A DNA stretch of 64,000 nt, taken from the NCBI RefSeq assembly GCF_008298015.1, contig NZ_VTPX01000001.1, positions 744,001 through 808,000 of the forward strand, in the 5' to 3' direction. The position numbers were made by a program, and so were the translations under genes. The notes beneath the pieces are model-generated. The model searched no databases. It had not been told where the DNA came from and saw nothing but the letters and a program-made list of their open reading frames with translations. This document shows positions 56,386-60,110 of the stretch, in pieces; within the stretch, counting starts at the first letter, position 1; each line of letters starts with the position of its first letter. Source of the stretch: Salinicola corii (GTDB lineage Bacteria; Pseudomonadota; Gammaproteobacteria; Pseudomonadales; Halomonadaceae).

Positions 56386-56871
56386 TCAGGTAGCGGAACC
56401 GTCGTCCGATTCCGGTGTGACTTGGGCGTGCGAGGCCAAGCGATTCAGAGAGCGCTTGAGCGGAGAGTCTTCCAGGCCCTCCGCGCAGTGGGAAAGTGCA
56501 TCGGCGCCGGCTGGCGACAGGCGACGCGTCTGTCGCGGTAGCGCCTTGACGGGCCGGATCGGGCGTACCTTCAACGAGAATTTCATGACGGCCTCGAAGC
56601 CGGGCAGTTGATGCAACAACTCGAGCAGCCGAGGCTGTTCGTAACGCAGCCACGTCAACCATGCGGCGCGGTCGGTGATCAATGTCAACACGCCGTTGCG
56701 GTAGCCGCCGACGTAGAGGTGTTCGGCCACGTCCGGTGGGAGCTGCCGCCTCAGGTGGTTCTGGGCGCGTTCGATCAACGTCGCCATGCGCATCACGTCG
56801 CCCAGCCCTCCCGGTTGCTCAAGGAGTCGGGAAACGGGCTGGGCTCGTAAACGCTTAGCCTTTATACTCAT
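56386..56871 (-). CDS. DciA-like DUF721 protein
   Basis: DUF721 protein of 161 residues. The core (about residues 20-100) includes G-x-L-x-x-V-M-R-M-A-T-L-I-E-R-A, V-G-G-Y-R-N-G-V-L-T-L-I-T-D-R-A-A-W-L-T-W-L-R-Y-E-Q (in parts) and ends with a poorly conserved basic tail. DciA is the common bacterial loader of the replicative helicase DnaB, and the DUF721 gene next to lpxC/secA is the Pseudomonas arrangement. The C-terminal half is not conserved, so function is inferred from the domain and position. Confidence 0.8.
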   Translation of the reverse strand: MSIKAKRLRAQPVSRLLEQPGGLGDVMRMATLIERAQNHLRRQLPPDVAEHLYVGGYRNGVLTLITDRAAWLTWLRYEQPRLLELLHQLPGFEAVMKFSLKVRPIRPVKALPRQTRRLSPAGADALSHCAEGLEDSPLKRSLNRLASHAQVTPESDDGSAT

Positions 56872-56933
56872 CGGCTTGCACGCGGTGGGGAAAGACCCGC
56901 TAAACCTATCACGGCGCGGAGTTCGTCGACAGC

Positions 56934-57281
56934 ATGACTTCGGTCAAAGCGCAGTCCGGTCAGCGTGGCGCCATCTGGCGCCCCCGGCAGCGAGCCCATT
57001 GGTGGCTGGCCAGTGTGCTGGTCGGTTGTCTGCTGCCTGCGGGCTTGATGCACGCTGAGGCGATGCGGCTGGCCGAGCGCTTGACTCAGGTCTATCTGAT
57101 GGCCCCGGAGGCTATCCGGGCCGAATCCCGACGTGTCGCGCGCATCGCCGCCAAGCGTCCCCTGCACCCGCGGACCATGGCTCCCTTGCCGCAGCCGCGG
57201 CGGACCTATCTCGCCCCCCTGGTTGCCCTCAGTGCCGCCCTGGACGTCTTGTCCCGCAGAGGCCCGCCTGCACCTGCCTGA
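56934..57281 (+). CDS. Small exported protein upstream of secA; candidate SecM-type secretion monitor
   Basis: Unrecognised 115-residue protein. Residues 1-22 are basic, 23-39 hydrophobic, with a likely signal peptidase site after A-E-A (41-43). The rest is basic and Ala/Pro-rich, ending S-R-R-G-P-P-A-P-A (107-115). It lies 87 bases before secA, the place of secM in enterics. The end resembles the Arg-x-Gly-Pro of SecM and the Arg-Ala-Pro-Pro type of other arrest peptides, but the upstream Phe/Trp/Ile residues of E. coli SecM are not present. The last codons (57267-57278) can pair with the secA ribosome site (57351-57360). That it is expressed and exported is likely; that it stalls ribosomes is inference. 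Confidence 0.65.
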   Translation: MTSVKAQSGQRGAIWRPRQRAHWWLASVLVGCLLPAGLMHAEAMRLAERLTQVYLMAPEAIRAESRRVARIAAKRPLHPRTMAPLPQPRRTYLAPLVALSAALDVLSRRGPPAPA

Positions 57282-57360
57282 TGACCGCTATACCTTTTTC
57301 ATCATCACCGGCAGCCGGTGCTGGCCTCGTCGTCGCATGGCTGCCTCAAGGGCACGCAGG
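57267..57360 (+). promoter_or_regulatory. Candidate secA translational control structure
   Basis: CCTGC (57267-57271) pairs with GCAGG (57356-57360) and TGCC (57275-57278) with GGCA (57351-57354): 9 bp around a 3x1 internal loop. GCAGG is part of the secA ribosome site. A local hairpin CACCGG-CAG-CCGGTG (57306-57320) lies inside the loop and would bring the arms together. A ribosome halted at Gly110/Pro111 of the upstream ORF would cover the left arm and free the site. Prediction by eye only. Confidence 0.5.
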
Positions 57361-57368
57361 AATACATC

Positions 57369-60110
57369 ATGTTGAACGCAATACTACACAAGCTGGTCGG
57401 CTCCAAGAACGACCGCGACGTCAAGCGCATGCGCAAGCAGGTGGCGGCGATCAACGCACTGGAAGCCCAGTTCGAAGCGCTGGATGACACGGCACTCAAG
57501 GCCAAGACCGCAGAGTTTCGCCGACGTCTGGCCGATGGCGAGAAGCACGAGGCCATGCTGCCGGAAGCGTTCGCTACCGTCCGGGAGGCTAGCAAGCGCG
57601 TGCTCGGCATGCGCCATTTCGATGTCCAGATGGTTGGCGGCATGGCGCTGCACGAGGGCCGGATCGCCGAGATGAAGACCGGTGAGGGCAAGACGCTGGT
57701 CGGGACGTTGTCGGTCTACTTCAATGCGCTGCTGGAGAAAGGCGTGCATGTGGTCACGGTCAACGACTATCTGGCCAGTCGTGACGCCAACTGGATGCGT
57801 CCGCTCTACGAATTTCTTGGTTTGAGTGTCGGGGTCATCGCCTCCGGCCAGCCGAACGAGGAAAAGAAGCAGGCTTATGCCTGCGATATCACCTACGGGA
57901 CCAATAACGAGTACGGCTTCGACTATCTGCGCGACAACATGGCCTTCTCGCTGCAGGACAAAGTCCAGCGACCGTTGCACTATGCGATCATCGACGAGGT
58001 CGACTCGATCCTGATCGATGAAGCGCGCACGCCGCTGATCATCTCCGGTCCCGTGGAGGAGGACGTCGAACTCTATCGCACGATTCACACGCTCTCCAAG
58101 CAGCTCAAGCAGTGTACCGACGAAGAGGACCCGACCACCGGCGATTTTCTGATCGACGAGAAGCAGAAACAGGTGGAGTTGACCGAAGAGGGGCATCAGC
58201 GGGTCGAGCAGCTGATGCGGGAAGCGGGCCTGCTCAAGTCGGAAGACTCGCTCTACGCAGTTCAGAATCTCGGTTTGCTGCAGCATATTCATTCGGCGCT
58301 GCGTGCTCGCTGTCTCTATCACCGTGATGTCGACTACATCGTCTCGGATGGTAACGTGGTGATCGTCGACGAGCACACCGGGCGTACCATGCCGGGGCGC
58401 CGCTGGTCGGAAGGTCTGCATCAGGCGGTCGAGGCCAAGGAAGGGGTGGCGATCCAGCGCGAGAGTCAGACGCTGGCATCCACCACCTTCCAGAATTATT
58501 TCCGCCTCTACGATAAGCTGGCCGGGATGACCGGTACCGCCGATACCGAGGCCTTCGAGTTCAATCACATCTACGGGCTCGACGTGCTGGTGATCCCCAC
58601 CAACCGTCCGTTGGCGCGCCAGGATCTGAACGATCTCGTCTATCTGAGTGCCGAGGAGAAGTACGCCGCGATCATCGAGGACGTCAACACGCAGCGCGAG
58701 GCCAACCGGCCGGTACTGGTGGGCACCGCGTCCATCGAGACCTCGGAGTATCTCTCCAAGCTGATGCAGGCGAAGCAGATTCCTCACAACGTCCTCAATG
58801 CCAAGCAGCATGACAGCGAGGCCGAAATCATTGCCCAGGCAGGTCGCCCCGGTGCCATCACGCTGGCCACCAACATGGCGGGCCGTGGCACCGATATCGT
58901 GCTCGGCGGCAACTGGGAAGCCGAAGTCGCCAAGCTCGAGGACCCCAGCGAAGAACAGATCGAATCGATCAAGGCGGAGTGGCAGCAGCGTCACGATGCC
59001 GTGCTCGAGGCTGGTGGCCTGCACGTCATTGGTTCCGAGCGGCACGAATCCCGCCGGATCGACAACCAACTGCGTGGCCGTGCCGGCCGCCAGGGGGATC
59101 CGGGCTCGACGCGTTTCTTCCTGTCGCTGGAAGACAGTCTCATGCGACTGTTCGGCTCCGATCGGGTCCAGCGCCTGATGGGTGCGCTGGGACTCGAGGA
59201 AGGCGAAGCCATCGAGCACAAGATGGTCTCCAACGCGGTCGAGCGGGCGCAGAAGAAGGTCGAAGGCCGCAACTTCGACATCCGCAAGCAGTTGCTGGAG
59301 TACGACGATGTCTCCAACGATCAGCGCCGGGTCATCTACGAGCAGCGAGACGATATCCTTGCCGCCGACGAGATCTCCGACAACGTTGCCAGCATCCGCG
59401 ATGAAGTGCTCGAGCAGACGGTCTCCGACTACGTGCCGCCGCAGAGTCTGCCGGAGCAGTGGGAGCTGGCAGGACTGCAGGATCAGCTCAAGCAGGAGTT
59501 CAACATCGACCTTCCGCTGGTGCAGTGGGCGGAGGAGGACGACAGCTTCAACGAGGAAGTACTGCGTCAACGCCTGCTGGACCAGCACCGTGGTCAATAT
59601 CTCGCCAAGGTCGAAGCGATTGGTGGCGACATGATGCGACGTTTCGAGAAACAGGTCATGCTTCAGGTGCTGGACACTCGCTGGAAGGAGCACCTGCAGT
59701 CGATGGATCACCTTCGCCGGGGCATTCACCTGCGGGGCTACGCGCAGAAGAATCCGAAGCAGGAATACAAGCGAGAGGCGTTCGAGCTGTTCCAGTCCCT
59801 GCTTTACAACATCAAGCATGACGTCACCCGCATCCTGAGCCATGTACAGGTGCGTCGTCAGGAAGAGGTTGAGGATCTGGAGCGTCAGCGTCGCGAAGCG
59901 CTCGAACGGGAAAAGGCGGCCAGCCAATCGGTCCACGAGGAGGCTGTCGCCGCTGCTCAGCAGACTGCCGACGGGGCGGAATCGAAAGTCGAGCCGGCCG
60001 AGGATGGTGCCCAGCCGGTGCGCCGGGAGGGCCCGAAAGTCGGGCGTAACGATCCTTGCCCGTGCGGTTCCGGCAAGAAGTACAAGCAGTGCCATGGTGC
60101 GCTGAGCTGA
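57369..60110 (+). CDS. secA: Preprotein translocase ATPase SecA
   Basis: Motor that drives preproteins through SecYEG. 913 residues: Walker [10 protein letters not shown] (about 102-110), DEVD box [13 protein letters not shown] (about 207), second NTPase domain with [12 protein letters not shown] (about 503), scaffold and wing, and the C-terminal zinc motif [14 protein letters not shown] that binds SecB. ATG 57369 is preceded by CAGGAA. The upstream small ORF and leader pairing suggest secretion-responsive control. Confidence 0.97.

Follow-up and report, generated by a model that had tools for sequence, protein, structure and literature searches.

A probable Sec-monitoring arrest peptide of the RAPP-like class encoded directly upstream of secA in Salinicola corii and in most genera of its family

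Among the described systems that sense the state of protein export by stalling of their own translation, the closest to the locus analyzed here is uA_RQH_Pseudomonadales, a group of products of secA-upstream genes named by Fujiwara in 2024 (PMC10987492). According to the available part of that paper, its tested member, which has the motif R109GPP, brought ribosomes of E. coli as well as those of B. subtilis to arrest, and fAP values exceeded 0.9 in each of the two PURE systems. The same excerpts report that in every toeprint of an RQH-family member the P site is occupied by the third residue of the motif, and that in the case of uDF_RQH_Enterobacterales the arrest induces the downstream gene, while stem mutants relieve the repression at its Shine-Dalgarno sequence (SD). 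In the accessible portion of another work (PMC12992588), RGPP is the variant that generally gave the most robust arrest across several contexts and is, of all tetrapeptides, the one most excluded in many bacterial phyla.

In the window, i.e., the whole analyzed stretch of 64,000 nucleotides of S. corii DNA, secA is preceded by an upstream ORF (uORF) of 115 codons plus stop (56934-57281, plus strand, as are all features below unless stated otherwise), which we propose to be the gene of an arrest peptide monitoring Sec export, with secA as the regulated gene. The coordinates and translation of the uORF agree with the original prediction, including the C-terminal SRRGPPAPA and the gap of 87 nt (57282-57368) between its stop and the secA ATG, and so does the signal-peptide-like N-terminus, as the translation of 56934-57281 contains an arginine-rich start followed by a hydrophobic core. 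The secA gene (57369-60110) was recognized by the Pfam SecA domains, scanned from 57372; the ATG at 57369 was our choice of start, and the mechanical list of ORFs starts this gene at GTG 57318. On its other flank the uORF is bordered by dciA (56386-56871, minus strand, Pfam DciA). Results of our analysis indicate that the uORF product most probably belongs to the RAPP-like (RQH) class of arrest peptides, monitoring Sec export and exerting feedback control on secA, and that it very probably detects difficulties in secretion by stalling the ribosome that makes it. A sigma-70-type promoter was searched for in 56780-57420 with no match, which we count against this explanation, and the scan of 56800-57700 with Rfam gave no match up to E 1.

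Relatives of the uORF are widespread in Halomonadaceae, a family placed by GTDB in the order Pseudomonadales. A search with the single sequence detected them in 53 of 61 genomes of the family, the window's own included, with E values no higher than 2.8e-5, and a 27-row profile matched the uORF in 257 of 275 family genomes, representing 20 of 24 genera. Every searched genome of genera g3, g4, g22, and g24 lacked a match, which accounts for 16 of the 18 misses; the remaining two concern genomes that are 66% and 80% complete. In the order-wide sample of 293 genomes, 12 of the 13 matches were in the family, and one, short and weak, was elsewhere. A search for the motifs [RQH][AG]PP and RAGP, limited to ORFs of 60-299 aa with ATG, GTG, or TTG starts that end no more than 450 nt from secA, revealed no RAPP-like motif near an ORF end before secA in eight genomes of g3, g4, g22, and g24, and no RAPP-like uORF before secA in 35 loci from other families of the order (one genome per family), two of which are incomplete. 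In the named genome collection 18 loci were found, of which 15 were labelled Salinicola, with identities of 61-93%.

In all 52 genomes in which both genes were located, the uORF sits 15-207 nt before secA. G013 was excluded from this set, as no secA start was found there; the profile does detect its uORF (1.3e-35), and the secA that follows it matches only partly, as if frame-broken, in an assembly that is 93% complete. G082 gave no secA match at 1e-20, and the sequences of L125 and L112 comprise only 397 and 1126 bases, respectively. Altogether 112 uORFs were read: the 52 in full and 60 among the better-scoring matches listed, the latter leaning towards conserved ones. The counts given here are not independent, because the genomes are related. 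In one genome of genus g12 (G355; L164/L209), the uORF frame has no stop and runs into secA, and secA is split over two frames, which is most simply explained by assembly indels rather than by a natural fusion. A gene similar to those of M23 peptidases precedes secA in seven of eight uORF-less family genomes examined (L102, L103, and L105-L109), as well as in 25 of the 35 loci of other families; elsewhere in the family it is the uORF that holds that place. The origin of the uORF from this gene was considered and rejected, as profile comparison detected no similarity (probability 0.9%).

The predicted arrest motif, R109-G110-P111-P112, is encoded at 57258-57269. In the set of 52 fully read uORFs the motif is RGPP in 49 and RAPP in three, so that R109, P111, and P112 are invariant (52/52) and G occurs in 49/52. 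R[AG]PP is present near the C-terminus in all 112 uORFs read (109 RGPP, 3 RAPP), and all 60 extra relatives, which come from the better-scoring matches listed, have RGPP. This conservation of the C-terminal motif exceeds chance. The tail that follows RGPP has 2 to 16 residues, except at one locus without a stop in frame. The motif is not a loose variant of that of SecM but RGPP, reported as the most robust arrest form in several contexts (PMC12992588, in the part available). By analogy to the RQH toeprints, the ribosome should stall with its P site at Pro111 (codon 111, 57264-57266) and its A site at Pro112 (57267-57269), which corrects the position Gly110-Pro111 proposed earlier.

The features that define the RQH/RAPP-like class and can be computed are all found in the relatives: a short ORF with no assigned function immediately before secA, secDF, or yidC (here secA, in 52/52 genomes with both genes located), an N-terminal localization signal in the form of a hydrophobic 15-mer (52/52), a conserved RAPP-like motif at the C-terminus (112/112 read, 60 of them from the better-scoring matches listed), and a signal-to-motif distance of more than 30 residues (70-77 in 52/52). 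Possibly, the uORF could be a diverged true orthologue of SecM, since it has the same place, a signal, a spacer near the short-SecM length, and Arg two residues before the P-site residue. However, the SecM family PF06558, which among 14 control genomes matches E. coli, gave no match in the genome of the window, and none of 27 relatives matched it at E up to 0.1. The SecM motif FxxxxWIxxxxGIRAGP is absent as well: the window protein reads ...LVALSAALDVLSRRGPP, with no F, W, and I at 13, 8, and 7 residues before Arg, and with RGPP instead of RAGP. We therefore rejected SecM orthology, which we regard as the least probable of the explanations considered. As the four computable features of the RQH class are present and SecM proper is not, the present evidence suggests that the uORF works like SecM but belongs to the RAPP-like class.

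The hydrophobic core of the signal sequence comprises residues 23-41 (WWLASVLVGCLLPAGLMHA; 57000-57056), for which the mean majority fraction in the 52 relatives is 0.81, and a hydrophobic 15-mer with a Kyte-Doolittle mean of 1.85 or more is present in each of them. Thus, the C-terminus and the signal are both conserved in relatives, as the original prediction demanded (R[AG]PP in 112/112 read, 60 of them from the better-scoring matches listed; hydrophobic core in 52/52). Inside the core there is an invariant Cys32 (57027-57029) in the lipobox-like context LVGC; this Cys occurs in all 112 uORFs read, including the 60 from the better-scoring matches listed, and is preceded by L, then V/I/F/L, then G/S/T. 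A strict lipobox pattern is found in 103 and a broader one in 111 of the 112 read (60 from the better-scoring matches listed). In the 52-protein set the Cys is at residue 24 to 59, a number that depends on the first start codon. From this Cys to the Pro predicted to occupy the P site there are 77-84 residues in 112/112 read (60 from the better-scoring matches listed). The spacer between the end of the most hydrophobic 15-mer and the predicted P site is 70-77 residues in 52/52, with a median of 72, which is close to the median of 71 of short SecM proteins; the available part of PMC10987492 gives 131.5 for the long ones and describes the spacers of secA and secDF uORFs as mostly varying widely. 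A second conserved block covers residues 52-67 (QVYLMAPEAIRAESRR; 57087-57134), with the approximate consensus QICLxAPxxIRAESRR, located 44-59 residues before the predicted P site. Majority fractions in the 52 are 0.81 for the signal core, 0.72 for this block, 0.33 for spacer residues 68-100, and 0.99 for RGPP; hence, the spacer sequence drifts while the spacer length and RGPP are constant. Since in VemP separate conserved elements are needed for regulated release (PMC11470409, in the part available), block 52-67 and the fixed spacer may be candidate release-control parts.

The signal with the invariant Cys in a lipobox-like context (strict in 103 of 112 read, 60 of them from the better-scoring matches listed) and the second conserved block could also be expected if the uORF product were simply a small secreted protein or lipoprotein acting in the periplasm, with RGPP near its end by coincidence. 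That the uORF product is a lipoprotein is only a possibility, the strict lipobox failing in 9 of the 112 read (60 from the better-scoring matches listed). Several observations argue against such an ordinary role, which we consider very unlikely: the window protein has no Pfam or NCBIfam family at E up to 1, no Pfam family is common to more than one of 27 relatives, the spacer drifts in sequence but not in length and RGPP does not drift, the tetrapeptide is reported to be the most excluded one (PMC12992588, in the part available), and the gene lies before secA in 52/52 genomes with both located. More speculatively, and in our opinion improbably, the arrest peptide could be a distance-gauged monitor, in which the Cys 77-84 residues from the arrest point would restrict the arrest to one stage of translocation or lipoprotein processing, so that SecA would be tuned to a specific export step and not to bulk Sec capacity, the sequence after RGPP having been recruited in Salinicola as an SD-sequestering arm.

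In Salinicola, the end of the uORF is complementary to the secA SD. The anti-SD arm CCUGC (57273-57277, codons 114-115) and the SD GCAGG (57356-57360) pair in 82 of 85 cells in 17 Salinicola loci, fully in 14 and with one mismatch in three, whereas 19-68 cells are paired when the arm is shifted 1 to 6 nt in either direction; CAGG is present no more than 20 nt from the secA start in all 17. Codon 114 is CCT in 11, TCT in four, TCC in one, and CCC in one, thus T-ending in 15/17. Within the 5' part of their secA genes, these loci use CCT for 3 of 204 Pro codons and TCT for 7 of 375 Ser codons, and in the uORF body CCT makes up 12 of 153 Pro codons. The binomial estimate for codon 114 was set aside because the genomes are related. 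The change between Pro and Ser at this codon places C or U opposite G, and the pair is kept. From the alignment alone, RNAalifold returned the arm-SD helix as the only long-range helix. The alignment shows little covariation (term -0.04; the consensus energy is -2.95), and pair-shuffle controls were equal or higher in 125, 71, and 115 of 500 on three measures. The conserved register has an ensemble probability of at least 0.8 in 8/17 Salinicola; S. salarius (L006, L009) and S. halophyticus (L007) are among those with a strongly predicted helix. SD sequestration by the uORF tail is supported at the genus level, but not by the window species taken alone. The original prediction proposed to check whether the R-R-G-P-P end and both arms co-vary: the end is conserved, but covariation of the pairing is slight. 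It paired 57267-57278 with 57351-57360. The bases are indeed complementary (CCUGC 57267-57271 to GCAGG 57356-57360, and GCC 57276-57278 to GGC 57351-57353), but the ensemble probability of this register in the window species is 0.00, and the conserved one uses codons 114-115, not 112-113. In the intergenic regions of three Salinicola genomes (L006, L008, and L009) a second GCAGGAA lies about 16 nt upstream of the SD copy, and L005 and L007 have its degenerate version. In genus g6, characterized by RAPP, the tail is different and, in L095 and L096, which are two of the three genomes read, matches its own SD over 10 bp.

In the window species itself, both registers have an ensemble probability of 0.00, and the conserved pairing is, in the folding model, only one of several competing folds. 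Folding of 57230-57400, put forward earlier as a check, gave a result no better than that for shuffled sequences (z 0.46; 133/200 shuffles fold at least as well), and the fold of 57258-57384 is not clearly better either (z -1.06). The predicted gain in SD opening is equalled or exceeded by 8/40 and 4/20 of the species' own shuffles. At the family level, masking of the region covered by a stalled ribosome reduces the SD-opening cost by a mean of 1.87 kcal/mol in 52 genomes, compared to 0.21-0.92 in 25 shuffle sets; when two other sequence lengths were used, averaging over genomes gave 1.73 (0.31 to 1.34 in 40 shuffle sets) and 2.02 (0.12 to 1.36 in 20), and averaging over genera gave 1.02 (-0.08 to 0.95) and 1.77 (0.14 to 1.07). 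The gain exceeds 1 kcal/mol in only 25/52 genomes. Pairing of the SD with the own arm across 20 genera is not significantly above that in permuted combinations (12.4% and 14.3% as good).

These results bear on the view that the uORF encodes an arrest peptide but secA is governed mainly by ribosome traffic or translational coupling, with RNA pairing incidental outside a few clades. The lack of either register in the ensemble of the window species, the differences in SD-pairing strength between genera with no significant overall excess, and the intergenic lengths of 15 to 207 nt among the 52 are in its favor, while the rare-codon constraint in Salinicola with its slide control and the effect of the masked ribosome, which exceeds all shuffle sets at the family level, speak against it. 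We consider this view rather doubtful, and feedback control of secA by the arrest peptide remains the preferred explanation.

The intergenic region of the window also contains the predicted local hairpin CACCGG-CAG-CCGGTG (57306-57320), a perfect one of 6 bp. It retains 5 or 6 of the 6 pairs in 9/17 Salinicola, five of which have one C-G pair replaced by U-A, and is lost in 8/17. When the uORF end is covered, GGCUGCC (57339-57345) is predicted to be an alternative partner of GGCAGCC (57310-57316), the pair probability in the window species rising from 0.01 in free RNA to 0.74 with the ribosome footprint masked, and the SD pairing hardly shifts (0.44 to 0.39). A four-arm attenuator in the sub-clade of the window was rejected: the helix swap is predicted in 3/4 genomes and is preformed without the ribosome in the fourth, and the mask hardly alters SD pairing in any of the four. 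Removal of all upstream RNA lowers SD pairing in 2/4 of these genomes (0.51 to 0.35 and 0.56 to 0.36).

Direct observations comprise the gene, its position, its motif and spacing, and, in Salinicola, the rare-codon and complementarity constraint on the SD arm. Arrest and its position have been shown for the RQH class in other members and may be extended to this protein by analogy, and we infer that this protein arrests, is released by Sec, and induces secA, as follows. The N-terminal signal would target the nascent chain to the translocon, and RGPP would halt the ribosome once the signal core lies about 72 residues from the peptidyl-transferase center, with Pro111 in the P site and, in the A site, the Pro-tRNA that brings residue 112. 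With Sec working, the pull on the chain would free the arrest, the ribosome would complete the last four codons and depart, and the vacated codons could then base-pair, either with the secA SD or with arms in the intergenic region. A ribosome footprint reaches about 15 nt downstream, and here would end near 57279. When Sec is slow, the stalled ribosome would thus cover the last codons to about 57279, leaving the SD exposed and more SecA to be made. Of the original proposal of a secretory arrest peptide that opens secA, the secretory nature and the probable arrest stand, and the stalled ribosome would cover the anti-SD arm, but the P-site residue and the register had to be corrected.

The ORF was originally regarded as unrecognised. 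In our literature search no paper was found that names this gene or genus in an arrest role, and the available text of PMC10987492 contains no mention of Halomonas, Halomonadaceae, Salinicola, Chromohalobacter, or Cobetia; however, the class and the secA-upstream group of Pseudomonadales with R109GPP were published in 2024, as that text indicates. Searches for RGPP with secA and ribosome matched only PMC10987492 and PMC12992588, and those for monitoring substrates with secA and Pseudomonadales only PMC10987492. Because among the sampled loci of the order (one genome per other family) only those of this family have such a uORF, and the residue number is identical, the published tested protein is likely a relative, and the uORF of the window, as a SecM-like Sec monitor of a known kind, is probably already catalogued. 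What the family offers is a natural series, across 20 of 24 genera, of strictly spaced RGPP-type arrest peptides encoded ahead of secA, and, in one genus, a synonymous-codon signature of an RNA switch, i.e., material for asking how Sec export frees arrested ribosomes and how such switches arise repeatedly.

In comparison with known systems, the uORF of the window shares with E. coli SecM a signal sequence, the position adjoining secA, arrest at Arg-x-[G/P]-Pro, and the logic of SD sequestration, but has RGPP where SecM has FxxxxWIxxxxGIRAGP, and a predicted Pro in place of Gly in the P site. With ApdA and ApdP, the RAPP arrest peptides, it shares the R-[A/G]-P-P core and a short upstream requirement (PMC12992588, in the part available), although these are encoded before secDF, in Actinobacteriota and Alphaproteobacteria, as stated in the available part of PMC10987492. 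In the case of uDF_RQH_Enterobacterales of Alteromonas, RGPP is shared, but the gene controlled is secDF2 (PMC10987492, excerpts). The greatest similarity is to uA_RQH_Pseudomonadales, which represents a subset of the GTDB order Pseudomonadales: like the uORF of the window, it is located upstream of secA and has a signal sequence and RGPP with R at position 109, and it differs in that the accessible text of PMC10987492 describes neither an anti-SD arm nor a fixed spacer for it.
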